Source: Halofilum ochraceum
Lineage (GTDB): Bacteria > Pseudomonadota > Gammaproteobacteria > XJ16 > Halofilaceae
Length of the DNA: 64,000 nucleotides
Direction of reading: 5' to 3'
Assembly: GCF_001614315.2 (NCBI RefSeq)
Contig: NZ_LVEG02000017.1
Location: 62,001 to 126,000 of the forward strand
Shown: positions 3,062 through 38,035 of the stretch, one piece after another
How positions within the stretch are numbered: position 1 is the first letter of the stretch
Layout: every line of letters begins with the position of its first letter
Translations under genes and position numbers: made by a program
The notes under the pieces: model-generated
The model's input: only the letters and a program-made list of their open reading frames with translations
What the model was told of the DNA's origin: nothing
The model's database searches: none

Positions 3062-4219
3062 TCAGCGCGCGGCGAGCCAATCCATCGGGTCCACGGGCTG
3101 GCCCTGGCGGCGGATCTCGAAGTACAGGCCGGGTTCGCGCTGACCCCCGGAGGCACCGACCCGGGCGATCGCCTCGCCGGGGGCCACCCAGTCCCCGGTC
3201 GAGCGCAGCAGTTGCCGGTTGTAGCCATACAGGCTGAGCCACCCGTCCTGATGGTCGACGATCAGCAGTTGGCCAAACCCTTCCAGCCAGTCGGCGAACA
3301 CCACCCGGCCATGATAGACGGCTCGCACCGGCTCGCCCGCGGCGGCGTCGATCACAAGACCCCGCCACCGGGTGCGGCCGCTGGCGCGTTCGCTCCCGTA
3401 CCGGACGCGCAGATCACCCCCCGCGGGCCAGTCCAGGGCATTGCGCTGGGTGTCGAACGGTCGTTCCTCCAGCGGCGCGCCGGGGATGTCATCCATGACA
3501 TTGCCGAGTTTCTCGAGCAGCTCCCGAAGCCGTTCCCGGCTCGCCTGCAGGCGTTCCAGTTCATCGCCCTTCTCGGCGATGGACGCCTGCAGCCGTTCGA
3601 CGACCTGACGTCGTTCAGCGCTCGCCTGTTCCAGCCTGGCCCGCTGGCTCTCGAGGCCCTCGCGCGCGGTTGCCAGTTCTTCGCGGGCCGCGCGCGCGTC
3701 CTGAGTCACCCCCGCGATCTTGTCCATCAGAGATCGCGCCTCATCGATCGCGCCCAGCCGTGCGCGATTGAAATACCCGTAATAGCCGAGTGCGCGGGCC
3801 AGGGTGCCAGGACTGTCCTGGCGCAGCAGCAGACGCAGGGCCGGTTGGCGGCCGAATCGGTGCGCCGCCCGCAACTGCTCCGCCAGTGTATCCCGGTGGC
3901 CCTCCAGTGACTCGACCAGCTCGCGCCGCCTGGCTTCGAGCTGGTCGAGGCGCCGCCGGCTCCGGTCGATCCGGGTATCGAGATCGTCGATCCGGTTCGC
4001 GATCGAGCCGATGCGCTGCTCGAGCCTGGCGAGTGTCGCGCTGGCCTCATCGCGGCGTTCACGCTCCTCGCGCAGATCACCCTGGACGGCATCGATCCGT
4101 TCCCGCAGTTCCTCGAGACGGGCTCGGGTCTCGGCCTCATCGGCCGCGACGCCGGGCGCCGGCAGGAGTGCCAGGGCCAGGAGCGGGAGCAGGAAAGACG
4201 GCAAGCGGGGGCGGCGCAT
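3062..4219 (-). CDS. envC: murein hydrolase activator EnvC
   Basis: A 385-residue periplasmic protein with a signal peptide (LPSFLLPLLALALLPAPGVAA), a long coiled coil (about residues 28-250, rich in RLEELRERID-type heptads) and a C-terminal LytM/M23 domain. The LytM metal ligands are missing: the usual HxH is YFE in LYFEIRRQG. This is the state expected of EnvC, which activates amidases rather than cutting peptidoglycan itself. ATG at 4219 is chosen because the signal peptide starts there; the frame upstream is not protein-like. It is the first gene of the envC-ctpA-yibQ set, with a bidirectional intergenic region in front. Confidence 0.9.
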   Translation of the reverse strand: MRRPRLPSFLLPLLALALLPAPGVAADEAETRARLEELRERIDAVQGDLREERERRDEASATLARLEQRIGSIANRIDDLDTRIDRSRRRLDQLEARRRELVESLEGHRDTLAEQLRAAHRFGRQPALRLLLRQDSPGTLARALGYYGYFNRARLGAIDEARSLMDKIAGVTQDARAAREELATAREGLESQRARLEQASAERRQVVERLQASIAEKGDELERLQASRERLRELLEKLGNVMDDIPGAPLEERPFDTQRNALDWPAGGDLRVRYGSERASGRTRWRGLVIDAAAGEPVRAVYHGRVVFADWLEGFGQLLIVDHQDGWLSLYGYNRQLLRSTGDWVAPGEAIARVGASGGQREPGLYFEIRRQGQPVDPMDWLAAR

Positions 4220-9723: not shown

Positions 9724-9830
9724 TCGGCTCAATGACCGCCCCGACCATAGCGCGAGTAGCGATAATGAAGATGCAAACGACGGCGCCCATGCGGCGGCCG
9801 GCTCGCGATGACCGCGGAGAGACGACGGCC

Positions 9831-11564
9831 ATGAACCCGACCCGTATGCGAACCCGGCCGCTGGCCGCCGCTTTCGCCGCCACCCTGTTGCTGGCTGGCT
9901 GCGCCAGTCCCATGGAGCGCGAGCCGGAAAGCGGACCCACGCTTGATCGGATCCGTGAGGCCCTCGACGAGGGGGCGGCCGCCAGTGAACCGGAGGAAAC
10001 GCCGGCGGATGTCGAGGCGGCGCTGATGCCGGGGATGGAAGAACAGTTGAGTGACGAAAAGGCGAGCGCGGGCGGCGATACCGAACGCTTCGACCTGTCG
10101 GTCACGAATGCCAGTGCGCGGGCCTTCTTCATGGGCCTCGTCGAGGGGACGCCTTACAACATGGTGGTCCATCCCGACGTCGAGGGCGAGATCAGCCTCG
10201 AACTCAAGGATGTGACCATCCCCGAGGTCATGGATATCGCCCGGCGCGTTTACGGCTACGAATTCGAGCGCCGTTCCACGGGCTATATCGTCATGCCCGC
10301 GCGCATGGAATCGCAGATCTTCTATGTCGATTACCTGAATGTGAACCGCGATGGTGAATCGAACATGAGTGTGGCATCGGGCGAGGTCACCAGCGCGCCC
10401 GCCAACGGCAATAGCGGCAACAACAACGGCGGCAGCAGCCGCCGGACGCAGGACCCGGGCAGCCGGATCGCAACCAGCTCCCAGGCGAACTTCTGGGGCA
10501 CGCTGCGAGAGACCGTCCGCTCCATCATCGGATCTGGCGAGGGCCGCAGCGTGGTCGTCGATCCGCAGGCGGGCCTCGTCGTCGTTCGGGCGATGCCGGG
10601 CGAACTGCGTGACGTCCGCGGCTACCTCGGCGCCGCCGAGGAAAATCTCCAGCGTCAGGTCGTGCTCGAGGCGAAAATCCTAGAGGTCCGGCTGTCCGAG
10701 TCGAACGAGACCGGGATCAACTGGGCGGCTCTGGGCGACGGTGCCAATGGCGACGCGGTGATTGCTGGCCAAGGCACGATCAGTCAGGGCACGACCGATG
10801 TGCTCACCGACAGTGGTGCGTTTGATCCAACCTCGATCACCAGCCCCGGTGGTACCGGAGGCGCGTTCGATTTCGGCGGGATTTTCGCGATCGGCGCGCG
10901 CGCCAACGACTTCGCGGCGCTCATCCGTCTGCTCGATACCCAGGGTGACGTCCAGGTCCTGTCGAGCCCGCGTGTATCTACACTCAACAACCAGAAGGCG
11001 GTCATCAAGGTCGGCACTGACGAATTCTTCGTGACCGATGTCCAGACCGATACTGACACCACCGCCGCGACGAGCACGCGCAGTGTCGACGTCGATCTGA
11101 CGCCGTTCTTCTCCGGCATCGCGCTCGACGTCACGCCGCAGATATCGCAGTCCGGCAGCATCACCCTGCACGTGCATCCGACCGTGAGCGAGGTCACGGA
11201 CCAGCAGAAGAGCATTACCTTCGCGGGCCAGCAGCAGTCTCTGCCATTGGCCGTCTCACAGGTGCGCGAATCCGATTCCGTCGTCCGCGCCAAGGACGGT
11301 CAGGTCATCGTCATTGGCGGTCTGATGCAGGATCAGGCCACCCGCAACCGGGCCCAGCCCGGCGGTCTGGGTGATCTGCCGCTGGTCGGCGGCCTGTTCC
11401 GCCAGAAGGCGGATTCGAGTTCCCGCAGCGAACTGGTGATCCTGCTGCGCCCGATGATCACCGGCGATGGCGGTGGCGACTGGTCCGATCAGATCCGCGA
11501 GATGCGCGAGCGCCTGCCGGATTCGGATGTCACCGGTGACGGTCAGGGGGCCGCGTCGCAGTGA
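9831..11564 (+). CDS. mshL: MSHA outer-membrane secretin MshL
   Basis: A 577-residue lipoprotein secretin that forms the outer-membrane gate for the pilus. The ATG at 9831 gives a lipoprotein signal with lipobox LLLAGC; the open frame extends 33 codons upstream without purpose. N-terminal STN-like and secretin N domains (about residues 85-170: FDLSVTNASARAFFMGLVEG, HPDVEGEISLELKDVT) lead into the secretin barrel (VLSSPRVSTLNNQKAVIKVG, QVIVIGGLMQDQATRN, LPLVGGLFRQK, ELVILLRPMI). Its stop codon overlaps the mshM start (TGATG). Confidence 0.92.
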   Translation: MNPTRMRTRPLAAAFAATLLLAGCASPMEREPESGPTLDRIREALDEGAAASEPEETPADVEAALMPGMEEQLSDEKASAGGDTERFDLSVTNASARAFFMGLVEGTPYNMVVHPDVEGEISLELKDVTIPEVMDIARRVYGYEFERRSTGYIVMPARMESQIFYVDYLNVNRDGESNMSVASGEVTSAPANGNSGNNNGGSSRRTQDPGSRIATSSQANFWGTLRETVRSIIGSGEGRSVVVDPQAGLVVVRAMPGELRDVRGYLGAAEENLQRQVVLEAKILEVRLSESNETGINWAALGDGANGDAVIAGQGTISQGTTDVLTDSGAFDPTSITSPGGTGGAFDFGGIFAIGARANDFAALIRLLDTQGDVQVLSSPRVSTLNNQKAVIKVGTDEFFVTDVQTDTDTTAATSTRSVDVDLTPFFSGIALDVTPQISQSGSITLHVHPTVSEVTDQQKSITFAGQQQSLPLAVSQVRESDSVVRAKDGQVIVIGGLMQDQATRNRAQPGGLGDLPLVGGLFRQKADSSSRSELVILLRPMITGDGGGDWSDQIREMRERLPDSDVTGDGQGAASQ

Positions 11565-12477
11565 TGTATCTCGAATACTTCGGCCTGCGCGAAGCGCCCT
11601 TCTCGCTGACGCCCGACACCGGCTTTTTTTTTGCCATACGGGCCATCGCGAGGCGCTGAACACGCTGCGGATCGCCCTCGACAGCGGCGAGGGCTTCATC
11701 CGCGTGAGCGGCGAGGTCGGTACCGGCAAAACGATGCTGTGCCGCATGCTGTTGTCGGAACTGCGCGAAGACGAACGCGCGATCTACATCCCGAACCCGC
11801 ACCTCATGCCGTCGATGCTACGCGTGGCCGTCGCCCGCGAACTGGGTCTCGAGGCGGACAGCCGGCTGGACCAGAATCTCCTGCTCAGCCGGATCCAGGA
11901 TCGACTCATCGAGCTTGGACACGAAGGCATCCGGCCCATCGTCTGCCTCGACGAGGCCCAGGCGATGCCCGATGAGACCCTGGAAGCCCTGCGCCTGTTG
12001 ACCAACCTGGAAACGGAAAAGCGCAAACTGCTGCAGGTGGTCCTGTTCGGCCAGCCCGAACTCGACGAGAAGCTGGCGAAACCCTCGCTGCGCCAGGTGC
12101 GCCAGCGCATCGCCTGGTCGTGCCGGCTCGAGCCGTACGACCGCAACGACATCGCCGCCTATCTGGACCACCGCCTCGCCGTCGCCGGTTACGACGGCCA
12201 TCGCCTGTTCCGCGATGGCGCGGTGGACGCGCTCCACCGCACCAGCGGCGGCATTCCACGCCTGATCAACATTATCGCCCACAAGGCGCTGATGCTGACG
12301 TACGGCCGCGGCGGCGATACCGTGCGCGTGGCGGATGTCGAGGCAGCCGCCGCCGATACCGACGGTGCGCTGGAATCGGCCAGCAACCGCGGCCGGACCT
12401 GGCTCCTGGCGGCCGGCCTCGTAGCGCTTGCCATCGGCGTCCTGGCCCTGTTGCGGCCCGGTGGGTTGTTGCCATGA
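11564..12477 (+). CDS. mshM: MSHA biogenesis ATPase MshM (ExeA/GspA-like), apparent frameshift
   Basis: An AAA+ ATPase of the ExeA family, thought to help place the secretin. The expected N-terminus MYLEYFGLREAPFSLTPDTG starts at 11564 with the ATGA overlap to mshL, but after TTT TTT TTT (11624-11632) this frame ends 27 bases on. The rest (CHTGHREALNTLRIAL..., Walker A GEVGTGKT, Walker B IVCLDEAQ) continues in the -1 frame from 11632. Joined by a -1 shift, the product is about 304 residues, and its first 40 residues align without a gap to the intact second copy at 32234. A T10 run would restore the frame. The C-terminus has one membrane helix. It could be a pseudogene, a sequencing error or a slippage-decoded gene. 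Confidence 0.8.
11624..11632 (+). other. T9 homopolymer frameshift / candidate slippage site in mshM
   Basis: Nine consecutive T follow GGC in an otherwise GC-rich gene. Upstream and downstream coding frames differ by exactly -1 here. Runs of nine or more A or T are known to allow RNA polymerase slippage, and T TTT TTT allows tandem tRNA re-pairing. They are also common sequencing indel sites. Confidence 0.7.
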
Positions 12478-14066
12478 GCGTGATCAACCGCATGCTCGCC
12501 GACCTCGAACGCAGGGGCGCCCCGGGGGCACGACGGCAGCACACCGCGAACGCGTCCGCGCGTGCGCTGTCCCCGCGCGGGGCCCTCACGCGCTTGCGCC
12601 CTCTGGGGCCGCCCGTGCTGCTGGTCGCCCTGGTGATCGTGGCCGCCACCCTCTGGCGGGAACAGTGGCCACGGGTGCTGGCTCTGGTCGAGAGCACGCG
12701 CGAGGCACCGGCCGTAGAGGTCACGGCGACCGACGCCAAAGAATCCGGTGAAGCTTCACTGCCAGGCGTCCGCCGGTTCGAGTTCGAGCGCGATGGTGCG
12801 ACGACCCGCCTCGTCGTCGCGTTCGACCGTCCACTGGAGCAGGCGCCGGGGTATGGCCGGACGGGAGACCGGATCGGTCTGCAGTTGCCGGCGCGCTGGG
12901 ATCGGGAGGCACCGCCCGCGCCGCCGGGGGATCAGTCCGTATACCGCAGCGCCGTCGTGAACGATCGCGCGGAGGACGGCACACGTATCACCATGCGTGT
13001 GGATCCGGAAGCGCGCTTCGATCTCGCGATCGATGGCGATCGGCTGACCCTCACGGGACGCGCGCCTTCCGGGGGCGAGCGCGATCGGTCCGGGGAGGCG
13101 TCGGGTGCCGACGGCTCGGATCCGGAGGTTGGCGTGGGTGTGGCTGAGACCGGGGATACCGCCGAACGCGGGACCAACGGAACCGGGACCACCGGCGCGA
13201 CGACGCCAGGCGATACCCTGCAGGTGGCCGCGCAAAGCGGAGCGACCGCCGAGGGCGATCGGCCCGAGCGGTCCGAACGCTCCGGGCAATCCGAAGACGA
13301 AACGGCGGATAAGGACGACCGTGCAGACGCCGGACGGGGATCGGCCGCGCCGGCGAGCAACGACGACGGTGCGGACAATGTGACGCGGACGGCTGCGTCC
13401 GCTGGCGGCAGTGGATCCGCAGAGGCGAACGAACGGGCGGACGAATCCGAAGGCCGGGTCCGGAAGTCCGAACCCGATATCGGACCGCAGGAGCGCGCGC
13501 AGCGGCTCGAGGCCAAGGCCCGGGAGCGCCTCGGCGATGGGGATGTCACGGCGGCGCGGCGGCACCTCGCGAAAGCGCTCGAGTTCGATCCCGACCGTCA
13601 TGCCGCACGGGATCTGCTGGTCGGTCTATCCCTGCGCAGCGGCGACTCGGCGGCGGCACGCAACCTGCTTGCAGAGGGTGTGGCACGGGCGCCGGAGCGC
13701 ATCGCCTATGCGAAACCGTTCGCCCGCCTGCTGGTCGACGCGGGCGATCTGGAGCGCGCACTGCGCGTGCTGCAGCGCGCGGCGCCGGCAACCGACGGTG
13801 ATGCCGGGTACCATGGGCTTACCGCCGCCGTCGCCCAGCGCCTGAAACGGCACGAACTCGCCGCGAGCGCCTACACGCGTGCGCTGGAAATCAACAGCGG
13901 CCGCGGCGTGTGGTGGATGGGGCTGGGCATATCGCTGCGCGCGACCGGCCATCCGGACGAGGCGCTGGCCGCGTTCCGCGAGGCCCGCGCGAGCGGTGAT
14001 CTGAACGAGCGGCTCGACCGCTGGGTGCAACAGCGTATCGAGGCGCTGGCGCGTACCGGGGAGTAG
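12474..14066 (+). CDS. mshN: MSHA biogenesis protein MshN (TPR protein)
   Basis: A 530-residue inner-membrane protein. The ATG at 12474 overlaps the mshM stop (ATGA) and gives the family start MSVINRMLADLERRG. One membrane helix at about residues 42-60 is followed by a beta-rich, AMIN-like stretch (VRRFEFERDGATTRLVVAFD), a long acidic/Gly/Thr linker (about 200-335) and C-terminal TPR repeats (about 340-525). The TPR part probably faces the periplasm. The low-complexity linker is unusually long and is shared in style with the second copy at 34860. Confidence 0.85.
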   Translation: MSVINRMLADLERRGAPGARRQHTANASARALSPRGALTRLRPLGPPVLLVALVIVAATLWREQWPRVLALVESTREAPAVEVTATDAKESGEASLPGVRRFEFERDGATTRLVVAFDRPLEQAPGYGRTGDRIGLQLPARWDREAPPAPPGDQSVYRSAVVNDRAEDGTRITMRVDPEARFDLAIDGDRLTLTGRAPSGGERDRSGEASGADGSDPEVGVGVAETGDTAERGTNGTGTTGATTPGDTLQVAAQSGATAEGDRPERSERSGQSEDETADKDDRADAGRGSAAPASNDDGADNVTRTAASAGGSGSAEANERADESEGRVRKSEPDIGPQERAQRLEAKARERLGDGDVTAARRHLAKALEFDPDRHAARDLLVGLSLRSGDSAAARNLLAEGVARAPERIAYAKPFARLLVDAGDLERALRVLQRAAPATDGDAGYHGLTAAVAQRLKRHELAASAYTRALEINSGRGVWWMGLGISLRATGHPDEALAAFREARASGDLNERLDRWVQQRIEALARTGE

Positions 14067-14072
14067 ATCGGC

Positions 14073-15863
14073 ATGGCATTCCGCAAAAAAATCCGCCTCG
14101 GCGACCTGCTGGTGCAGGACGGGCTCATCAACCAGGAGCAGCTCGACCGGGCCCTGTCCGAACAGAAGCGGAGTGGCCGCAAGCTCGGCTCGACCCTGAT
14201 CGACCTCGGCTATGTGACCGAGGACCAGGTCCTCGACTCGCTGGCGCGTCAGTTGCACCTGGAGCGTGTCGATCTCACGCGCTACGACTTCGACCCCGAA
14301 GTCGTGCGCATGCTCCCCGAGACCCAGGCGCGGCGCTTCCGGGCCGTGGTCCTGGCGGATGAGGGCGACGCCCTGCTGGTCGGCATGGCCGACCCCACCG
14401 ACATCTTCGCTTTCGATGAGCTCTCCCGGCATCTGAAACGCCCGGTCCGTCAGGCCGTGGTCAGCGAGACGCAGCTTGTGCGCATGCTCGACCGCATCTA
14501 TCGCCGCACGGCGGAGATCAGCAATCTCGCCGAAGAGCTCGGCCAGGAACTGTCGGAGAGTGATTACGACATCGAGCGCCTGCTCGAGGAGGAAGAGCAG
14601 ACCGAGGTCCCGGTCGCCAAGCTGCTCAAGTCCCTGTTCGAGGACGCCGTCCAGGTCGGCGCCTCGGACATCCACATCGAACCGGATGAACGGATCCTGC
14701 GCATCCGCCAGCGCGTTGATGGCGTGCTGCAGGAACAGGAGATGAAGGAGCGCCGCATCGCGCCGGCCCTGGTCCTGCGTCTGAAACTGATGGCGGGCCT
14801 CGATATCTCCGAGAAGCGTGTACCGCAGGACGGGCGCTTCAACATCCGCGTGAAGAAGCGCTCCATCGACGTGCGCCTGTCGACCATGCCGGTGCAGTAC
14901 GGCGAATCCGTCGTCATGCGCCTGCTCGACCAGAGCGGCGAGATGCTGGATCTGGGCCAGCTCGGCATGACCGAGGAAACGGTCACGCGCCTGCGCCGCC
15001 ACGTGCACCACCCCTACGGCATGGTGCTAGTGACCGGCCCGACCGGCAGCGGCAAGACGACCACGCTCTATGCCGCCCTGCGCGAACTGAACAACGCCGA
15101 GAAGAAGATCATCACGGCCGAGGACCCGGTCGAGTACCGCATGTCGCGCGTCAACCAGGTCCAGATTCAGCCGCGCATCGGGCTCGATTTCGCGCGCATC
15201 CTGCGCTCCGCGCTGCGCCAGGATCCGGACGTCATGCTCGTCGGCGAGATGCGCGACGCCGAGACCGCGGACATCGGCCTGCGCGCCGCGCTGACCGGTC
15301 ATATGGTCCTGTCGACGCTGCATACCAATGACGCGATCGGCACGGTCGATCGTTTGATCGACATGGGCGCGGAGGGCTATCTTATCGCCGCCACGCTGCG
15401 CGCCATCGTCGGCCAGCGATTGCTGCGGCGGGTGTGCACCAGCTGCCGCCAGCCGACGGAACTCGACGCAACGCAGCGCGCCTGGCTGGAATCGCTCATC
15501 GGCGAGAAGCGGGCGGCGAAGCTGACGTTCCAGGTGGGCAAGGGCTGCGCCCAGTGCAACCGCACCGGCTACCAGGGACGGATCGGCATCTATGAGATCC
15601 TCGAGCTGACCGCCGAGATGCGCACCGCGCTGCGGCGCAGCGACACGATCGCCTTCGCCGAGGCCGCCCGCAGGGCGCCCGGCTATAAGCCGCTGGTCGC
15701 GAGCGCACTGGAACTCGCGGCGCGCGGGACCACCACGCTGCGCGAGGTGGAGCGTATCTCCGGCGAGGTGGAGGAACTGCTCGCCGAAAACAACATGCCG
15801 GGTGCCGACCGCGCCGAGGAAGAAGCCGCGGCTGATGGGGTGACAACGAATGCCGCGCTTTGA
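14073..15863 (+). CDS. mshE: MSHA pilus extension ATPase MshE
   Basis: A 596-residue GspE/PilB-type hexameric motor ATPase. The N-terminal MshEN domain has two c-di-GMP-binding motifs: RLGDLLVQDGL..., starting at Arg8, and KLGSTLIDLGYV.... The core has Walker A GPTGSGKTTTL, an Asp box, Walker B DVMLVGEMRD, His box (TGHMVLSTLHTNDA) and a zinc tetracysteine (CTSCRQ...CAQCNRTGYQGR). Both MshEN motifs keep the Arg/Lys-Leu-Gly start and terminal Gln, so control by c-di-GMP as in Vibrio MshE is likely. It overlaps mshG by 14 bp. Confidence 0.95.
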   Translation: MAFRKKIRLGDLLVQDGLINQEQLDRALSEQKRSGRKLGSTLIDLGYVTEDQVLDSLARQLHLERVDLTRYDFDPEVVRMLPETQARRFRAVVLADEGDALLVGMADPTDIFAFDELSRHLKRPVRQAVVSETQLVRMLDRIYRRTAEISNLAEELGQELSESDYDIERLLEEEEQTEVPVAKLLKSLFEDAVQVGASDIHIEPDERILRIRQRVDGVLQEQEMKERRIAPALVLRLKLMAGLDISEKRVPQDGRFNIRVKKRSIDVRLSTMPVQYGESVVMRLLDQSGEMLDLGQLGMTEETVTRLRRHVHHPYGMVLVTGPTGSGKTTTLYAALRELNNAEKKIITAEDPVEYRMSRVNQVQIQPRIGLDFARILRSALRQDPDVMLVGEMRDAETADIGLRAALTGHMVLSTLHTNDAIGTVDRLIDMGAEGYLIAATLRAIVGQRLLRRVCTSCRQPTELDATQRAWLESLIGEKRAAKLTFQVGKGCAQCNRTGYQGRIGIYEILELTAEMRTALRRSDTIAFAEAARRAPGYKPLVASALELAARGTTTLREVERISGEVEELLAENNMPGADRAEEEAAADGVTTNAAL

Positions 15864-19013: not shown

Positions 19014-21008
19014 ATGATGACCGGGGCGACTGATACCGGCGATACGGGCCCGCGGACCGGATGGTTCGGGATCCATTTCAAACACCGAATCTCGCTCGAC
19101 GCGATTTCGCCTGTGTGCGTCCTCGTCGCCGTGGTCGTCGCATCGTTTTACAACGGCATCCACACTGACTATTACGCCGCCGCTGGGATCACGATCTGCG
19201 TCGCCATCGTATTTGCTGTCTGGAGTCCAGGCGCAAGGCCTGCGCTGTCGATCGGACCGGCAGGCTGCATGCTGGCCGCGCTTTTCCTCTGGACACTCGT
19301 CAGTACCCTGTGGTCAACGGTGCCCTACCTCACGTCCATTCACGCCGGGGCCATCGGTTGCGCGCTCGGCGCTTATCTTGTCGTCCGCATTCAGGGCGCA
19401 AGCGCTATAGCATCAGCGCTCACTGCAGGATTCCTCCTCACGGGAGGTTTCGCATTCTCTCTGTTCATGATTCTGCAAGCCCTTGCGGGGGAGCGGCCCG
19501 AAGGGACTTTCCTGAACGTCAACACCGCGGGTGCGTTCGTCAATCTCCTCTGGCCCGTCGCGGCCGCGCTTGTGCTGCACCCACGTATTGAAAAAAAGCC
19601 GAGACTAGTTCTTCTGGCACTTGTTACGACAAGCATTTTCGCTGTTGGTATCACTGGGGGGCGGGCGCTCGCCCTCGCGTTGATCGCGGCTGTCGCGGTC
19701 ATGGCCATCGCCGCCCTCTGCTGGGGATATCGCCGCAAAGTCGCCGTGCTGGTGATCACGGTCGCTATTGCGCTCGTGCTCGCTCACGGGCTTAACCGTC
19801 TGCTCCCGGACAGCGGTATCCGCGGGCTCGGGCATCGTCTGACTACCCTGTCCGATCCCACTGCGGCGGGCGCTTCCCGACTGCGAATCTGGGAGCCCAC
19901 CTGGCAGATGATCCTGGAGCATCCATGGCTCGGCTGGGGGCCGGGTACCTTTTTCCAAGCGTACACGGCATACCGGCCCTCGCAGGACGGGAGCGCGGGA
20001 TTTCAGGCGCATAACGACTACCTTCAGGTTTGGGCAGAGTCCGGACTCCCGGGCCTCGTCCTTCTGCTGGGTCTTGCCGGTGCGTGTATCTATATCTACA
20101 CCCGCGCCATGCGGCGCCCACCGGCAAGCAACGGCGATCGGGTCAAAATCATTGCAGCAGGCGGTGCACTCGCCAGCGTGGGCGTCCACGCGCTGTTCAG
20201 TTACAATCTCCAGGTACTCGTTTACCTGATCGTGCTGGCGATATTTCTTGCGATGCTCGATTCGACCGCAGCCACCCGGATCGTGACGGCGGTCCCCATC
20301 GCTCGCCTGCGCAGACGCCGTCTTCCCGCCGTTGCCCTGATTCTTCTGTTGGCAATTCCGGCCGTTCATCTCGGTACTGTGGCCACATCCCACCGGTACA
20401 CTAACCGTGGGGTCACGCTTCTTGCCAACGGTGACTACCAAGCGGCTGATGAGGCGCTACGCACCGCCGCTCGTCTCTGGGATGCGCAGGATCTAGCACC
20501 GGGTCTGCAGGCCAAGGTTCGGAGCCGTGCTCTCGATACTGTCGAAGAGAGCGATATCGATCAGCGGCAGGCGTTGAAGCGCCAGGGGATTCAGCATGTT
20601 GAAGCCGCGCTGGAGCGGAATCCCCTGCGCGCGCTCCACTACCTTACGCTTGGCCGTATCCAGCTGGAGCCGCCCGGCGCCGATCTCGACGCCGCCGCCG
20701 CGAGCTTCCGGCGCGCATTGGCCCTGAATCCGCGCGCGGCGTCGGCACGGCGCGAACTCGCACTCCTGCTCCGAAAACGTGGCCGCGAAGACGAGGCGCT
20801 CGCAGTCGCCAACGCCGGCTTCGGCATGTACTACTCGCGTGCAAACCCGATTCCACTCATGCAACTCGGAATCGAGCTGCGATCGAGCGCTGGCGATCAC
20901 GCCGGTGCCGAACGTCTCCAGACCCAGATACGCGAGCGCCGCGCACGGGCCGAAAGCCTCGACGAAGAGACAGGGGAAGTCCTCACCGCTGAGCCGGGTG
21001 ATTCATAG
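19014..21008 (+). CDS. O-antigen ligase-like membrane protein with TPR tail (possible pilin O-glycosyltransferase)
   Basis: A 664-residue polytopic membrane protein with about ten to twelve helices (residues 30-450) and the Wzy/WaaL/PglL-type periplasmic loop near residues 303-345 (LGWGPGTFFQAYTAYRP, then FQAHNDYLQVWAESGLPG). The C-terminal 190 residues are TPR-like (ANGDYQAADEALRTAARLW, NPLRALHYLTLGRIQLEP). Such proteins transfer lipid-linked glycans either to lipid A core or to proteins such as pilin. It sits between mshA and the minor pilin genes, which favours pilin glycosylation; that is inference. The ribosome binding site is weak, so the start at 19014 is tentative. Confidence 0.75.
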   Translation: MMTGATDTGDTGPRTGWFGIHFKHRISLDAISPVCVLVAVVVASFYNGIHTDYYAAAGITICVAIVFAVWSPGARPALSIGPAGCMLAALFLWTLVSTLWSTVPYLTSIHAGAIGCALGAYLVVRIQGASAIASALTAGFLLTGGFAFSLFMILQALAGERPEGTFLNVNTAGAFVNLLWPVAAALVLHPRIEKKPRLVLLALVTTSIFAVGITGGRALALALIAAVAVMAIAALCWGYRRKVAVLVITVAIALVLAHGLNRLLPDSGIRGLGHRLTTLSDPTAAGASRLRIWEPTWQMILEHPWLGWGPGTFFQAYTAYRPSQDGSAGFQAHNDYLQVWAESGLPGLVLLLGLAGACIYIYTRAMRRPPASNGDRVKIIAAGGALASVGVHALFSYNLQVLVYLIVLAIFLAMLDSTAATRIVTAVPIARLRRRRLPAVALILLLAIPAVHLGTVATSHRYTNRGVTLLANGDYQAADEALRTAARLWDAQDLAPGLQAKVRSRALDTVEESDIDQRQALKRQGIQHVEAALERNPLRALHYLTLGRIQLEPPGADLDAAAASFRRALALNPRAASARRELALLLRKRGREDEALAVANAGFGMYYSRANPIPLMQLGIELRSSAGDHAGAERLQTQIRERRARAESLDEETGEVLTAEPGDS

Positions 21009-30673: not shown

Positions 30674-32098
30674 ATGTCGAACGAAGCCGCCGGCTCGGCC
30701 GCTCCGAAACCCGGACTGCTGCTGGTCGATGATGACCCGCTGATCCGGGACAGCCTGTCCTACATGCTGCGCCCGGATTTCGATGTCCACGTGGCGGAGA
30801 CGCGGCGCGAGGCCACCGAGATTCTGCAGCAGCTCGAACCGACGCCCGTGCTGGCGCTGGTCGACCTCGGGCTGCCGCCGTATCCGCATAAGCCCGACGA
30901 GGGCTTCGCGCTGGTGCCCGAGTTGCTGGCGCACAATCCCCGCATGCGTGTGCTGGCGCTGTCGGGCCAGGATGACCCGGCGAACCTGCGCCATGCCTTT
31001 GCCCTGGGTGCCGCCGACTTCATCGCCAAGCCCTGCGAGCCGGAGCTGCTGAAATCGCGCCTCAGCCACCAGCTCATGCTCATCGAGGCCGAGGAAGAGG
31101 CGGAAGAGAAAGCACCCGAGACGGTACTGCACGGCGAGAGCGCCGCCCTGGAGGCGCTGCGCGAGCAGATCGCCCAGTTCGGCGATGCGCCGTTCCCGGT
31201 CCTGATCGAGGGCGAGTCGGGGACGGGCAAGGAGCTGATCGCCAAACGCCTGCATGAGCTCAGTTCGCGCGCGGACCAGCCGTTCGTGGCCGTCAACTGC
31301 TCGGCCTTCACCGAGACCCTGCTCGAAGCGCAGCTCTTCGGGCACGCCAAGGGCGCGTTCACCGGCGCCACGCAGGCCCGGACCGGTTTCTTCGAGGAGG
31401 CGGGCGACGGCACCCTGTTCCTGGACGAGATCGGTGAGATGCCACAGGAGCTGCAGTCGCGCCTGTTGCGGGTGATCGAATCGGGCGAGTATTACCGCGT
31501 GGGCGAGACGCGTCCGCGCACGGCCAACGCCCGTCTGGTGGCCGCCACCAACAAACAGCTGCTGCGTGAGGTGGACGCCGGGCGTTTTCGCCAGGATCTG
31601 TACTATCGCCTCAGTATCCTGCCGATCCACGTGCCGCCGCTGCGCGAGCGCGCCGAGGATCGCCTCGGCCTGCTGGCGTTCTTCCAGGATTTCTACACCG
31701 GCACGGTGCCACCGTTCTCGCTCGACGACGGCGCCCGCGAGCGCTGGCTGGCCTATCCCTTCCCGGGGAACGTCCGGGAGCTGCGCAATATCGTGATCCG
31801 TCTCGGGACCAAGTACCCGGGGCGCACGATCGACGCGGCCACGCTGGAGGGCGAACTCGACCCGACCGCGGCCACGCCTGGATCCGCTGGTGCCGACACG
31901 CGCTCGGAGGAGGAGATCGCCCGCGACCGGCTCGACGACGGCGACTTCGATCTCGATCGCCACCTCGCCGAGATCGAGCGAACCTACGTGCGGGCCGCGC
32001 GCGATCTGGCCGGCGGCAACCTCAGTCGCGCGGCCAAGCTGCTCAACGTCAACCGGACCACGCTCTACAGCAAGATCGAGCGACTGGGGGATGATTGA
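30674..32098 (+). CDS. sigma-54-dependent response regulator (PrsR/NtrC-like)
   Basis: A 474-residue regulator. The receiver domain (about 14-135) has DDDP acidic pocket, phospho-acceptor Asp64 in LVDLGLPP and Lys in IAKPCEPE. The AAA+ domain (about 150-385) has Walker A GESGTGKE, the GAFTGA loop that contacts sigma-54, and DEIGEMP. A Fis-type helix-turn-helix ends the protein (LSRAAKLLNVNRTTLYSKIE). It starts the second pilus cluster, 135 bases before its MshM-like gene. Its overall look recalls PrsR of exosortase loci, but no exosortase is present here. The likely kinase partner is encoded at 44915-46606. Confidence 0.88.
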   Translation: MSNEAAGSAAPKPGLLLVDDDPLIRDSLSYMLRPDFDVHVAETRREATEILQQLEPTPVLALVDLGLPPYPHKPDEGFALVPELLAHNPRMRVLALSGQDDPANLRHAFALGAADFIAKPCEPELLKSRLSHQLMLIEAEEEAEEKAPETVLHGESAALEALREQIAQFGDAPFPVLIEGESGTGKELIAKRLHELSSRADQPFVAVNCSAFTETLLEAQLFGHAKGAFTGATQARTGFFEEAGDGTLFLDEIGEMPQELQSRLLRVIESGEYYRVGETRPRTANARLVAATNKQLLREVDAGRFRQDLYYRLSILPIHVPPLRERAEDRLGLLAFFQDFYTGTVPPFSLDDGARERWLAYPFPGNVRELRNIVIRLGTKYPGRTIDAATLEGELDPTAATPGSAGADTRSEEEIARDRLDDGDFDLDRHLAEIERTYVRAARDLAGGNLSRAAKLLNVNRTTLYSKIERLGDD

Positions 32099-32233: not shown

Positions 32234-33196
32234 ATGTACCTTGAGCACTTCGGCCTCGACCACCCCCCGTTCCGGATTACACCGGATACGCGCGTGTTTT
32301 ATGAGGGCGGCGACCGCGGTGCAGTCCTCGAAGCCCTGGCCTGGGCGGTCGAGAATGGCGAAGGCATCGTCAAGGTCGTCGGTGAAGTCGGCAGCGGTAA
32401 GACCGTGCTGTGCCGGATGCTCCCGCAGAAGCTGCCCGCGCACGTGGATGTCGTTTATCTTGTCAATCCGGGGCTGGGGCCGGATGACGTGATCCCGGCC
32501 GTCGCCTTCGAGCTCGGCCTCGACATCCGTGCCGAGGAGCGGCTGGCGCAACAGCACCGGCTGCACGAAGAACTGGTCGAGCGCCATGCGCGCGGTCGCC
32601 AGGTCGTGGTGTTCATCGAGGAAGCGCAGAACATGCCGCTGGCGACCCTCGAATCGCTGCGCCTATTGTCGAACCTCGAGACCGATGATGCGAAGTTGCT
32701 GCAGATCGTGCTGTTCGGCCAGCCGGAACTCGACCGCAATCTCGACGCCAACGAGATCCGGCAACTGCGCGAGCGCATCACCCACTCATTCGACCTGCGG
32801 CCCCTAGAGCGGCAGGATGTCGCCCGGTACCTCAATTTCCGTCTGCGTGCCGCCGGCTATCGCGGCCCTGACCTGTTCGGTCCGCGCATCGCGCGCGCGC
32901 TCAACCGCCATGCCCGGGGCCTGATCCGGCGGCTCAACGTGCTGGCGGACAAATGCCTGCTGGCGGCCTACGCCGAGGGTACGCATACCCTGAGATTGCG
33001 CCATGTCCGGCGCGCGGCGCGGGACGTCCAGGCACCGGATACGCGTGCGCGGGTCGGGCGGCGACGCATCGCACTGGCCGGTGCCGCCGTGATCGTCATC
33101 GCGGCCATGGCATGGATCGTGCTGAACGGAGAGGGTCCGGGGTATATCGAGACCGATCTCGCAATCGGAAATACCGCGGGGGGAGACAGCCAATGA
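32234..33196 (+). CDS. second MshM/ExeA-like ATPase
   Basis: A 320-residue AAA+ ATPase. ATG at 32234 gives MYLEHFGLDHPPFRITPDTR, the same start as mshM of cluster 1; the frame upstream is not protein-like. Walker A GEVGSGKT, Walker B VVFIEEAQNMP and sensor region LLQIVLFGQPELD are present, and a membrane helix lies near residues 277-295. It overlaps the secretin gene by 4 bp. In contrast to copy 1 its frame is intact. Confidence 0.87.
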   Translation: MYLEHFGLDHPPFRITPDTRVFYEGGDRGAVLEALAWAVENGEGIVKVVGEVGSGKTVLCRMLPQKLPAHVDVVYLVNPGLGPDDVIPAVAFELGLDIRAEERLAQQHRLHEELVERHARGRQVVVFIEEAQNMPLATLESLRLLSNLETDDAKLLQIVLFGQPELDRNLDANEIRQLRERITHSFDLRPLERQDVARYLNFRLRAAGYRGPDLFGPRIARALNRHARGLIRRLNVLADKCLLAAYAEGTHTLRLRHVRRAARDVQAPDTRARVGRRRIALAGAAVIVIAAMAWIVLNGEGPGYIETDLAIGNTAGGDSQ

Positions 33197-34863
33197 CCGA
33201 AGGAAGTCCGGTCCCGATCCGGATCGGCCTGTGCGCGCTCGTATTCGCGCTTCTGGCCGGTTGCGGTGTGACGCGCCCACCGAGCCCCTCCGAGGGGCAC
33301 ATCGAGGCTGAAAGCGACGGGCAACAGTCGCAGGACGGCGACGCGTCGGCCACCGATGACGCCATCCCGGATCCCGTGACCAACGGCGCCCCGCTGCCGG
33401 CGCCCTCCGAACCCGAAGAGGTGGAACGCTATACGGTGGTGGTCAATCAGGTGCCCGTGCGCGAACTGCTGTTCGCACTGGCGCGCGATGCCGATATCGA
33501 GATCGACATCGCCGGTGATATCCAGGGCGAGGTCACCCTCAACGCGATCGACGAAACCCTGCCACGTCTGCTCGAGCGGATTTCGTATCAGGCCGCGATC
33601 CGTTATGAGCTCGACGACGATTACCTGCGCATCGCCGCCGACGAGCCGTATCTCGAAAGCTACCCCGTCGATTACGTGAACCTCTCGCGCAATGCGACCA
33701 GTACCGTGGAGACCGCGACCCAGATCACCTCCACGGGATTCGGCGAGGACGGTAGCGGTGGTAGTGGCTCCGGCGGAGGTTCTTCCGGGACGAACAATTC
33801 GAGCACCAGCCTCGAGAACGAGAGCGATAACCAGTTCTGGAGCACCCTGGAGCGCAATCTCTCCGGCATGCTCGGCGTCGAGGTCGAGGACGCCGGGGAG
33901 CGGTCCGACGAGCGGCGCTATCTGATGATCAACCGCGAGGCCGGTTACGTCACGGTCCGGGCGACGCAGCGCCAGCATGAGCAGGTGCAGCGTTACCTCG
34001 ATCGCGTCATGGAGAGCGCCCGGCGCCAGGTACTGATCGAGGCCACCGTGGTCGAGGTCGAACTCAGCGATCAATACCAGGCCGGTGTCGACTGGAGTTA
34101 CATCTCCAGTTCGGTCGGTGGCCTCGATCTGCTGGAGCAGAACCTGACCGCCGGTTCCCTTGGCAGCGCACCGAACGCGCTCGCCACCTTCGTGGACACC
34201 GACCTCGGCGGCGGGGAACTCCAGGCCACCGTGCGCGCGCTGGAGACCTTCGGTGACGTCAGCGTCATGTCGAGCCCGAAGATCATGGCCCTGAACAATC
34301 AGCTTGCCATCCTCAAGGTCGTCGACAACCGTGTGTACTTCACGGTTGATGTGGAGCAGACGCTGGACGAAGGGGTTACCAACACCGTCTTCGACAGTCA
34401 GATCAATACCGTCCCGGTCGGTCTCGTCATGACCGTCACGCCGTATATCGGTTCCGATGACGAGGTCCTGCTCAATACCCGACCGACCGTGTCGCGCATC
34501 CTCGGGTTCGTCGAGGACCCGAACCCCTCGCTCGCAGAGGCCGGTGTAACCAACCAGGTGCCCGAGATCCAGGTCCGCGAAATGGAGTCGCTGCTGCGCG
34601 TGAACTCCGGCCAGGTCGCCGTGATCGGGGGTCTGATGCAGGACAGCATCGACCAGAGCGAGCGCAGCGTGCCCCTGGTCGGCAATCTGCCCCTGGTCGG
34701 TAACCTGTTCTCGTATCGCGACGACCGGGTCGAGAAGACCGAACTGATCATCTTCCTGCGCCCGACCGTCGTCGATCAGGCGAATCTGGACGGCGATATG
34801 AAACGCTTCCGCCAGTACCTGCGGAGGCCAGAAATCGAGTCGGACTCCCCGGAGCAGCCGTGA
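33193..34863 (+). CDS. second MshL-like secretin
   Basis: A 556-residue lipoprotein secretin. The start at 33193 overlaps the upstream stop and gives a lipobox FALLAGC. STN-like and secretin N regions (VNQVPVRELLFALARDADIE, DIQGEVTLNAIDETLP) are followed by a Ser/Gly-rich insert (about 190-215) and the secretin barrel (VMSSPKIMALNNQLAILKVV, QVAVIGGLMQDSIDQS, LPLVGNLFSYRDD, ELIIFLRPTV). It is clearly diverged from the cluster-1 MshL, so an old duplication or separate acquisition is more likely than a recent copy. Confidence 0.9.
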   Translation: MTEGSPVPIRIGLCALVFALLAGCGVTRPPSPSEGHIEAESDGQQSQDGDASATDDAIPDPVTNGAPLPAPSEPEEVERYTVVVNQVPVRELLFALARDADIEIDIAGDIQGEVTLNAIDETLPRLLERISYQAAIRYELDDDYLRIAADEPYLESYPVDYVNLSRNATSTVETATQITSTGFGEDGSGGSGSGGGSSGTNNSSTSLENESDNQFWSTLERNLSGMLGVEVEDAGERSDERRYLMINREAGYVTVRATQRQHEQVQRYLDRVMESARRQVLIEATVVEVELSDQYQAGVDWSYISSSVGGLDLLEQNLTAGSLGSAPNALATFVDTDLGGGELQATVRALETFGDVSVMSSPKIMALNNQLAILKVVDNRVYFTVDVEQTLDEGVTNTVFDSQINTVPVGLVMTVTPYIGSDDEVLLNTRPTVSRILGFVEDPNPSLAEAGVTNQVPEIQVREMESLLRVNSGQVAVIGGLMQDSIDQSERSVPLVGNLPLVGNLFSYRDDRVEKTELIIFLRPTVVDQANLDGDMKRFRQYLRRPEIESDSPEQP

Positions 34864-36323
34864 GCCTCCTGCTCGATGCGCTGCGCCGCGCCGGTTCCGC
34901 ACGCGGCAATGACATCGCCGAGCCGGTGAACCGGCGCCCGGCTACCGACGACAATGGCACCGCGCGTGCCGGCGTGGACGAGTTCGATCTGGATCCCGAT
35001 GCCGCGACCGCCCTGGAGGCGAGCGGCGAGACCGCCGGCGCTGGCCTCGAAGGGCCCGCCCGCGCCGAGGCCGTCTTTCGCGGCGGCGCCCCGGGACGGC
35101 GGGTCATCCGTACCGCCGCCCTGTATACGCTGGTTGCGCTCATGCTGTTGGGCGGGCTGGTCGTGGGCGGCTGGTACTACTATGAGTCGACCCGCAGCGC
35201 GGTTGATCAGGAGCTTGTGCGCTACACCCCGGACCCCGCGACCGCGCCGGTGACCGACCCGGTAGCCGAGCGCGATGCCGACGCCGATCCGGCAACCGAC
35301 GATGCGCTCACAACGGCAGCAGCCGACAGCGCCGCTACCGCCCCCGATGGCGCCGACTCCGATAGCGTCGGGGCGGATACCGGCGCCGCGGAGGGAGATG
35401 CCGCGGCCGCACAGGCCGCTGCCGCCGACGGCGGTGACGGCAATCCCGCGGACGCCGCCAACGGGACGCCGGAGCAGGGTAGCGCCGCGGCGAACGAAGG
35501 GGCGACCGCGGGCGACGCGGGTACGGCCGCGAGCAGCACTGCCAGTGCGGAAACGGATTCCGCCTCCGGATCCACCACCGCGCAGGCGAATGCCAGTGCG
35601 GGCGCAGCGGACGCCACGGCGCCGGAAAGCGATAACGCCAAGCCGGCCTCGAATCCATCCCGTGGCACGAGCGCGTCGAGCGACGAGACGCGGACCGCCG
35701 CGGAGACGGGCGACGCGCCGATGGTGCGCAGCACCGGCAGCGCCGATGGCCGTTCCCCGCTCGGCCAGGCCCTGCAGGAAGGCTACCAGGCGCTGCGTGG
35801 CGGTGACCTCATGGCGGCGCGACGGCACTACCGCAAGGCGCTCGACCTCGCCCCGTCGAACCGGGACGCCCGCCTGGGCGCGGCCGCGGTGGCCCAGCGC
35901 CAGGGCAACGCCGCGGCCGCGATTGAACATTACCGCCGGGTATTGGCCGACCACCCGCGCGACCCGTACGCGCGCTCCGGTCTCGCCAGCCTGCAGAGCA
36001 CCGCCGATCCGCGCCAGCTCGAGAGTGAACTCAAAACGCTCCTGAAACAGGACCCGAACGCCCACGCGCTGCGCTACGCCCTGGGGAACCTGTATGCGCG
36101 CGAGGACCGCTGGTCGCAGGCGCAGTCGGCGTACTTCGAGGCGTTCCGCAGCGCCCCGCAGGAGGCGGACTACGCGTTCAATCTCGCCGTGGCGCTGGAT
36201 CAACTGGGTAAGCGGGAATCGGCCGTGGAGTACTATGACCGCGCCCTGGAACTGGCGGGTGACGGTTCCGCCTCTTTCCCGCTGGAATCCGCCCGCCGCC
36301 GCCTGGAAAGCCTCCGCCCATGA
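34860..36323 (+). CDS. second MshN-like TPR protein
   Basis: A 487-residue inner-membrane protein starting with GTG at 34860 (MSLLLDALRRAG), in the secretin stop (GTGA). A membrane helix lies at about residues 84-101 (AALYTLVALMLLGGLVVGGW), followed by about 180 residues of Ala/Asp/Gly-rich linker (about 115-295) and TPR repeats (about 300-480, ALQEGYQALRGGDLMAARRH). Architecture equals MshN of cluster 1. Overlaps the ATPase gene by 4 bp. Confidence 0.82.
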   Translation: MSLLLDALRRAGSARGNDIAEPVNRRPATDDNGTARAGVDEFDLDPDAATALEASGETAGAGLEGPARAEAVFRGGAPGRRVIRTAALYTLVALMLLGGLVVGGWYYYESTRSAVDQELVRYTPDPATAPVTDPVAERDADADPATDDALTTAAADSAATAPDGADSDSVGADTGAAEGDAAAAQAAAADGGDGNPADAANGTPEQGSAAANEGATAGDAGTAASSTASAETDSASGSTTAQANASAGAADATAPESDNAKPASNPSRGTSASSDETRTAAETGDAPMVRSTGSADGRSPLGQALQEGYQALRGGDLMAARRHYRKALDLAPSNRDARLGAAAVAQRQGNAAAAIEHYRRVLADHPRDPYARSGLASLQSTADPRQLESELKTLLKQDPNAHALRYALGNLYAREDRWSQAQSAYFEAFRSAPQEADYAFNLAVALDQLGKRESAVEYYDRALELAGDGSASFPLESARRRLESLRP

Positions 36324-38035
36324 CCGAGACCGAGCAACGGCAGGCCGCCCCGCCCCGGCGCCTCGGCGAACGCCTCGTCGAGGCGGGCATCGTCAGCGGC
36401 GACCAGCTGCGGATCGCGCTCACCGAACAGGACCGGGACGGTGAGCCGCTCGGCCGGATCCTGATCCGCCTCGGTTTCGTGACCGAGGCGGTCATGCGCG
36501 AACAGCTCGGCGAGGCCCTCGGGCAGGAGAGCATCGACCTCGCCCACGCGGTCCCGGACCGCGAGGCGCTCGCCCGCATCCCGAAGGAGCAGGCCAAACG
36601 CTTCGGGATCGTCCCCATCAGCTGGCGCGCTGATGAGGAAGCGCTCTATATCGCCATGGCCGATACGTTCAACCTGGTGACGCTCGACCGGGTCCGTGCG
36701 TACGTCGGCAGCGCGATCGAGATCCGCACGCTGCTGGCCGGCGAGGTCGAGATCGACGAGGCCATCGATCGCTTCTACGGCTACGAACTGTCGGTCGACG
36801 GCATCCTGCACGAGATCGAGACCGGCGAGATCGATTACGCCAGCCTCAACGCCGAGTCGGGCGAATACAGCCAGCCGCTGGTGCGCCTCGTCGATGCCAT
36901 CCTCGCCGACGCTGTCAAACGTGACGCCTCGGATATCCACTTCGAGCCCGAGGAAGGCTTCGTCCGCATCCGCTACCGCATCGACGGTGTGCTGCGCCAG
37001 ATCCGCAGCCTGCATGCGCACTTCTGGTCGCCGATCGCTGTGCGGCTCAAAGTGATGTCGGACATGAATATCGCCGAGACGCGTGCGCCGCAGGACGGGC
37101 GCATCTCGCTGTCGATCGGTGGGCACGTAATCGACTTCCGCGTCTCAGCGGTGCGCACGACCCATGGCGAGAACATCGTCCTGCGCGTGCTCGATCGGCA
37201 CAAGGGCATCCGGCCGCTGCCGTCGCTCGGCTTCGATGAAGAAACGATGGACACCCTCAACCTGATGATGTCGCGCCCCGAGGGCATCATCCTGGTCACG
37301 GGCCCGACCGGCAGCGGCAAGACGACCACGCTGTATTCGATGCTTTCCCACCTGAACCAGGAAAGCGTGAATATCGTCACGCTGGAGGATCCGGTCGAGT
37401 ATCCAATGCCGCTGGTGCGCCAGAGCGCCGTCAACGAGGCCGCGAAGCTGGACTTCGCCAATGGCATCCGCAGCCTCATGCGCCAGGACCCGGACATCAT
37501 GCTGGTCGGCGAGATCCGCGACGAGCCGACCGCGAGCATGGCCTTCCGCGCCGCCATGACAGGCCATCAGGTCTACTCCACGCTGCATACCAACTCCGCG
37601 CTCGGCGCGATCCCGCGCCTGCTCGATATCGGCATCCTGCCGGACGTCATCGCCGGCAACATGATCGGTGTCATGGGCCAGCGTCTGGTCCGCCGGCTCT
37701 GCGAGCACTGCAGGGCGCCCTATTCTCCGGACGCCGCGGAGCGCCGCCTGCTGGCCCTGGAGGCGCACGGCGATCACACGCTGTATCGCCCCGTGGGCTG
37801 CAGCCGGTGCGATGGCCGTGGCTATCGCGGGCGTTTTGCCCTGCTCGAGGTCCTGCGCATGGATGCGGATCTCGACGACCTGATCGCCCGCCGCTCGACG
37901 CTCAAGGAGCTCTCCGCCGCCGCCTACGACAAGGGCTTCCAGACGCTCGCGGCGGACGGCGCCCGCCGCGCACTCGAGGGCACGACTTCGCTGGAAGAGG
38001 TCGCCCGCGTCGTCGATCTGACGAGTCGGGTGTAG
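36320..38035 (+). CDS. second MshE-like ATPase (GspE family)
   Basis: A 571-residue motor ATPase. The MshEN region begins at Arg14 with RLGERLVEAGIVSGDQL...Q (intact first motif), but the second motif is altered: PLGRILIRLGFV lacks the leading Arg/Lys and ends in Ala instead of Gln. The core has Walker A GPTGSGKTTTL, Walker B DIMLVGEIRD, TGHQVYSTLHTNSA, and a zinc tetracysteine (CEHCRAPY...CSRCDGRGYRGR). It is the extension motor of the second machine. c-di-GMP control is possible but less certain than for MshE of cluster 1. Confidence 0.92.
   Translation: MTETEQRQAAPPRRLGERLVEAGIVSGDQLRIALTEQDRDGEPLGRILIRLGFVTEAVMREQLGEALGQESIDLAHAVPDREALARIPKEQAKRFGIVPISWRADEEALYIAMADTFNLVTLDRVRAYVGSAIEIRTLLAGEVEIDEAIDRFYGYELSVDGILHEIETGEIDYASLNAESGEYSQPLVRLVDAILADAVKRDASDIHFEPEEGFVRIRYRIDGVLRQIRSLHAHFWSPIAVRLKVMSDMNIAETRAPQDGRISLSIGGHVIDFRVSAVRTTHGENIVLRVLDRHKGIRPLPSLGFDEETMDTLNLMMSRPEGIILVTGPTGSGKTTTLYSMLSHLNQESVNIVTLEDPVEYPMPLVRQSAVNEAAKLDFANGIRSLMRQDPDIMLVGEIRDEPTASMAFRAAMTGHQVYSTLHTNSALGAIPRLLDIGILPDVIAGNMIGVMGQRLVRRLCEHCRAPYSPDAAERRLLALEAHGDHTLYRPVGCSRCDGRGYRGRFALLEVLRMDADLDDLIARRSTLKELSAAAYDKGFQTLAADGARRALEGTTSLEEVARVVDLTSRV

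Follow-up and report, generated by a model that had tools for sequence, protein, structure and literature searches.

A T9 run splits mshM of an MSHA-type pilus cluster into two reading frames that are probably joined by transcriptional slippage

Results

The window analysed here, 64,000 nucleotides of the Halofilum ochraceum contig NZ_LVEG02000017.1 (66.8% GC), carries on its forward strand a cluster of msh genes. An intact gene for the MshL secretin (9732-11564; TIGR02519, 279.9 bits with a cut-off of 250.2) lies directly upstream of mshM. Directly downstream is an intact gene for an MshN-like TPR protein (12474-14066, by domain match), followed by an intact gene for the extension ATPase MshE (14073-15863, T2SSE and MshEN domains) and, further on, by MshG. 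Between the secretin and TPR genes, a run of nine T at 11624-11632 (context cggc-TTTTTTTTT-gcc) breaks mshM into an ORF of 31 residues and, in the -1 frame, an ATPase ORF of 281 residues. ORF1 (11564-11659) starts at ATG 11564 and translates as the conserved stretch MYLEYFGLREAPFSLTPDTGFFF, followed by the eight off-frame residues AIRAIARR and a TGA at 11657-11659; the run supplies three TTT Phe codons in this frame, 20 codons after the start. ORF2 (11632-12477) opens as CHTGHREALNTLR..., contains the Walker A motif GEVGTGKT of the AAA+ ATPase body, and ends with the stop at 12475-12477; downstream of the run the -1 frame translates as CHTGHREALNTLRIALDSGEGFIRVSGEVGTGKT.... Both translations confirm the first-pass annotation, in which a frame beginning MYLEYFGL ran into the T9 tract and the rest of the ATPase continued in the -1 frame. 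Its second observation, that the joined product is collinear with a homologue at 32234, is borne out as well: the joined product has 57 residues from M to GKT, and the same count holds in the intact paralogue that begins at 32234 and in almost all of 77 homologues. The predicted junction peptide is ...TPDTGFFFCHTGHR.

The stop of mshL and the start of mshM overlap in TGATG (11562-11566), and the start of mshN and the stop of ORF2 overlap in ATGA (12474-12477). Both overlaps are conserved in the second species described below, and translational coupling is likely at each. The longest ORF call for mshM (11467-12477) begins at an ATG within mshL where the second species has ACG; from this start, automatic annotation would probably misplace the MshM N-terminus and conceal the frameshift.

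ORF2 is an AAA+ ATPase by domain-model search (AAA_22, E 9e-29). No model named MshM matched it in the profile libraries searched, nor did any solved structure by sequence, and the XrtA/PEP-CTERM ATPase model (TIGR03015) reached 192.3 bits, far under its cut-off of 324.5. Because of its gene order and sequence, an AAA+ protein with Walker A flanked by MshL and by the MshN-like TPR protein and MshE, we regard ORF2 as the putative MshM, the ExeA-like ATPase of MSHA pili, a name taken from gene context. MshM of Vibrio cholerae (VC0403; PMC4624765) is likewise an ExeA-like AAA+ ATPase in the same mshL-mshM-mshN-mshE order, but it is annotated as an ordinary gene, and the homologues read are single ORFs.

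The same contig holds a second MSHA-like gene set (32234-38035) with an MshM-like ATPase, a secretin, a TPR protein and an MshEN-T2SSE ATPase, preceded by a gene for an NtrC-type regulator (30674-32098). The MshM-like paralogue of this set (32234-33196, forward strand) is intact in a single frame and 43% identical to the split gene. Within the msh cluster, an O-antigen-ligase-like (Wzy_C) protein with TPRs (19014-21008) adjoins the pilin gene; it is 39% identical between the two species compared here, for which most assembly genes are 82-92% identical, mshQ 48% and the pilin 64%.

A genome search located ORF2, 93% identical across all 281 residues, in a second species, the congeneric MAG CAJXKK01 (uncultured Ectothiorhodospiraceae). 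The tract length in relatives had been proposed as a check, and this locus has exactly T9 at the same position and the same mshM split. CAJXKK01 is a metagenome consensus that was assembled independently of the source genome. The genus, the family and the order were each represented by just three genomes, of which two carry the split; the third genome of the genus is without an orthologue of the split gene. Elsewhere, 77 of 77 homologues with a complete N-terminus are single-frame. Walker A follows the PF.LTPDT motif at a distance of 113 nt here but at an in-frame 114 nt in almost every other homologue, and among 72 loci with a readable N-terminal motif and Walker A, only those of these two species are out of frame. 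In some other genera a T8 or T9 stands at this spot as well, but in frame. When 369 genomes of the class were searched for the pattern, some ATPase-family genes came up with T8 at the site, and each one whose locus was read is in frame. Since one frame and equal spacing are the rule among the other homologues whose N-terminus can be read, the joined product represents the ancestral protein. The split is confined to the genus as sampled, and would either predate the separation of the two species or have arisen twice at the same run; with the arrangement seen in two species, convergence, or phase variation with both genomes caught in the off state, may still account for it. Chance may have produced the T run itself before the deletion took place, as homologues elsewhere keep such a run in frame.

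Between the two species, ORF2 has a dN of 0.041, a dS of 0.567 and a dN/dS of 0.072 (NG86, indicative only for a single species pair), the lowest ratio among the cluster genes compared (mshI 0.088, mshL 0.092, mshE 0.103, gpsA 0.121, mshG 0.149, others higher). Third positions of its own frame take 89 of the 113 substitutions, and the ratio exceeds 2.5 when either of the other two frames is assumed. In the 0 frame, the two species agree at 21 of the 23 ORF1 residues up to the run. Both parts of mshM are under purifying selection, the downstream one in a frame of its own where homologues have one ORF.

The shared T9 at a dS of about 0.57 and the dN/dS of 0.072 make a sequencing error in both species, or a pseudogene, very unlikely. 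Homopolymers are typical error sites, and the first-pass annotation had left room for a sequencing indel. However, the same T9 and the same split occur in two independent assemblies of diverged species with purifying selection on the out-of-frame part, and the other 9-mer of this kind, an A9, is called in frame in both, so that we attach next to no probability to an error of sequencing or assembly. The idea of a shared pseudogene, whose frame would have been broken in the common ancestor and which would yield no full-length protein, could appeal to the intact paralogue present in both species and to the dispensability of mshM for piliation in V. cholerae (PMC4624765). Against it stand the low dN/dS over that divergence and 281 codons with neither a stop nor a second indel in either species, and a defunct mshM seems to us similarly close to negligible.

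The T9 is the sole A/T run of at least 8 in the window, and runs of T9 or A9 on either strand number five in the source genome (3.64 Mb), three in the second species and none in the third (3.0-3.6 Mb for the three genomes of the genus), and are thus not common in the genes of these genomes. Of 217 Phe codons in neighbouring genes, 17 (8%) are TTT, and in genes aligned between the species TTT stands in both at 5 of 119 Phe positions, so that three successive TTT codons retained in both are unusual, on a small count. The only other conserved coding T9 or A9 seen is the A9 mentioned above, which lies in a small SET-domain gene (...GPEAKKNGSH...) and is in frame in both species (locus L122, G000:C8, about 197326-197334; locus L123, G001:C39, about 4125-4133); slippage there would give truncated products.

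Discussion

What joins the two frames of mshM? We consider it probable that mshM is a functional gene in two frames joined by transcriptional slippage on the T9 run. RNA polymerase would slip on the template A9, on which the rU:dA hybrid of 9 bp holds only weakly, and some of the transcripts would gain one U (or lose two). Only these slipped transcripts would encode the complete MshM-type AAA+ ATPase, and the unslipped majority would yield the 31-residue peptide and leave about 0.8 kb before mshN untranslated and open to polarity. Because mshM is probably coupled to mshL through TGATG and to mshN through ATGA, mshN would be translated less from unslipped transcripts; slippage should determine how much MshM, and probably how much MshN, is made. 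That slippage occurs here, how efficient it is and how it affects mshN are what we infer from comparing the sequences.

The arrangement fits the comparative criterion for slippage genes of Baranov et al. (PMC1088944), who look for an A/T homopolymer of at least 9 at an ORF junction, as the T9 is here. Relative to in-frame controls, Escherichia coli RNA polymerase restores 5% and 10% of the expression of reporters frameshifted by poly(T7/T8), and it slips more as T runs lengthen (PMC6260861). In Shigella, slippage in spa13 and mxiE affects adjacent downstream genes (PMC5009743).

The same protein would be expected from -1 programmed ribosomal frameshifting, in which tRNAs slip on U_UUU_UUU into ORF2 and all mRNAs have nine U. 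This heptamer is present in the correct phase (0-frame UUU UUU after U), and since three Phe residues in TTT codons contain it, the run alone cannot separate a ribosomal from a polymerase slip. However, the folds predicted downstream differ between the species and do not exceed shuffled sequences in stability (z -1.3 to +0.4, pseudoknot-free folding), synonymous conservation does not cluster around the T9, and no Shine-Dalgarno-like stretch is apparent by eye in ctgacgcccgacaccggc just upstream of the run. In published work, heptamers that lack a stimulator reach only 2-10 fold over a no-motif background of about 0.05% (PMC4066793). The evidence that separates the two routes is one-sided and weak; taken together, we think ribosomal frameshifting rather improbable.

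A different possibility is phase variation, in which the tract length changes in the DNA, with T9 off and another length on, and mshM is switched at high frequency. A homopolymer early in a gene for a surface structure is the classical layout for such a locus, and frequent switching would also maintain purifying selection on ORF2. There is a pilus precedent in the G tracts of the Bifidobacterium breve sortase pili (PMC9187656), where a homopolymer controls a pilus gene; those tracts vary in length by replication slippage at the DNA level, whereas the mshM T9 is equal in both species. Slippage by the polymerase is favoured over phase variation because both species share the out-of-frame length, and a contingency locus should vary; as the comparison covers two genomes, this favours transcriptional slippage but would not prove it. 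The tract is exactly the same out-of-frame T9 in each species, one of them a metagenome consensus, and T9 and A9 runs are nearly absent from these genomes. MshM would also make a poor switch, as V. cholerae deleted for mshM produces no fewer MSHA pili on its surface (PMC4624765, S4 Fig). This weakens the earlier proposal that the tract turns the pilus on and off, which we regard as unlikely, and we give little credence to phase variation of mshM as a whole. Of the three explanations put forward at first pass, the shared T9 and split favour slippage and leave next to no room for an indel.

Finally, ORF2 might have its own start and need no slippage, either at ATG 11527 within mshL (about 316 residues) or by termination-reinitiation at CTG 11656, which overlaps the ORF1 stop. 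Of the standard starts that precede Walker A in the ORF2 frame, ATG 11527 alone is conserved in both species; between the T9 and Walker A, no ATG, GTG or TTG is conserved in both. However, the extension from ATG 11527 is identical at just 23 of 35 residues, compared with 93% for ORF2. It is without the motif MYxxFGLxxxPFxxTPDTxFF, which is retained in homologues and in the 0 frame, and no clear Shine-Dalgarno sequence precedes its ATG. CTG, for its part, serves poorly for initiation, and a product begun there would lack about 30 conserved residues. A separate start thus appears highly improbable.

How does transcriptional slippage in mshM compare with known systems? The closest resemblance is to Shigella flexneri mxiE (PMC1088944, PMC5009743, PMC6260861), which, like mshM, has a sense T9 and two overlapping ORFs (mxiEa/mxiEb), needs one added U for its long functional product, and belongs to an envelope machine; slippage there is demonstrated, and here predicted, and in mxiE it affects the adjacent downstream gene too. 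mshM differs from mxiE in that its product is an AAA+ ATPase of a pilus and its genome is rich in GC; its run comes only 20 codons after the start, which leaves an unslipped peptide of 31 residues. The frame of Citrobacter rodentium tssM1 (PMC4256274), a gene for a secretion machine, is restored by transcriptional slippage on A11 with 20-25% long product; that run comes towards the end of the gene, and the long and the short variant are both required, whereas the T9 of mshM is near the start and its short product is unlikely to be an enzyme. In Buchnera poly(A) genes and in E. coli ORFs disrupted at 9A/9T (PMC6260861, PMC1088944), a homopolymer indel is tolerated through RNA polymerase slippage. 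Those cases come from AT-rich reduced genomes or single strains, whereas mshM stands in a genome of 67% GC and its split is conserved in two species.

A conserved frame that depends on slippage is rare among bacterial genes outside mobile elements: a 2005 survey of 108 genomes gave mostly IS elements plus mapW (PMC1088944). Our literature search found no relevant paper that links mshM with frameshifting and, in titles and abstracts, none on transcriptional slippage in a type IV pilus gene. Annotation pipelines would probably label a split mshM a pseudogene or start it inside mshL.

More tentatively, and with a probability that we put well below even, the T9 may be a maintained set-point, through which RNA-polymerase fidelity controls the type IV pilus operon by way of the amount of MshM, the mshL/mshM/mshN coupling and possible polarity. 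If so, the slippage rate would fix the output of MshM, of mshN and of the downstream assembly genes, possibly varying with growth state or salt. MshM is listed among the MSHA components of unknown function (PMC9815625). As no function is known for MshM and V. cholerae makes surface pili in its absence, the split gene may be informative on its role: a natural limit on the dose of MshM, in what is nevertheless among the most constrained genes of the cluster, would offer a handle on MshM function.
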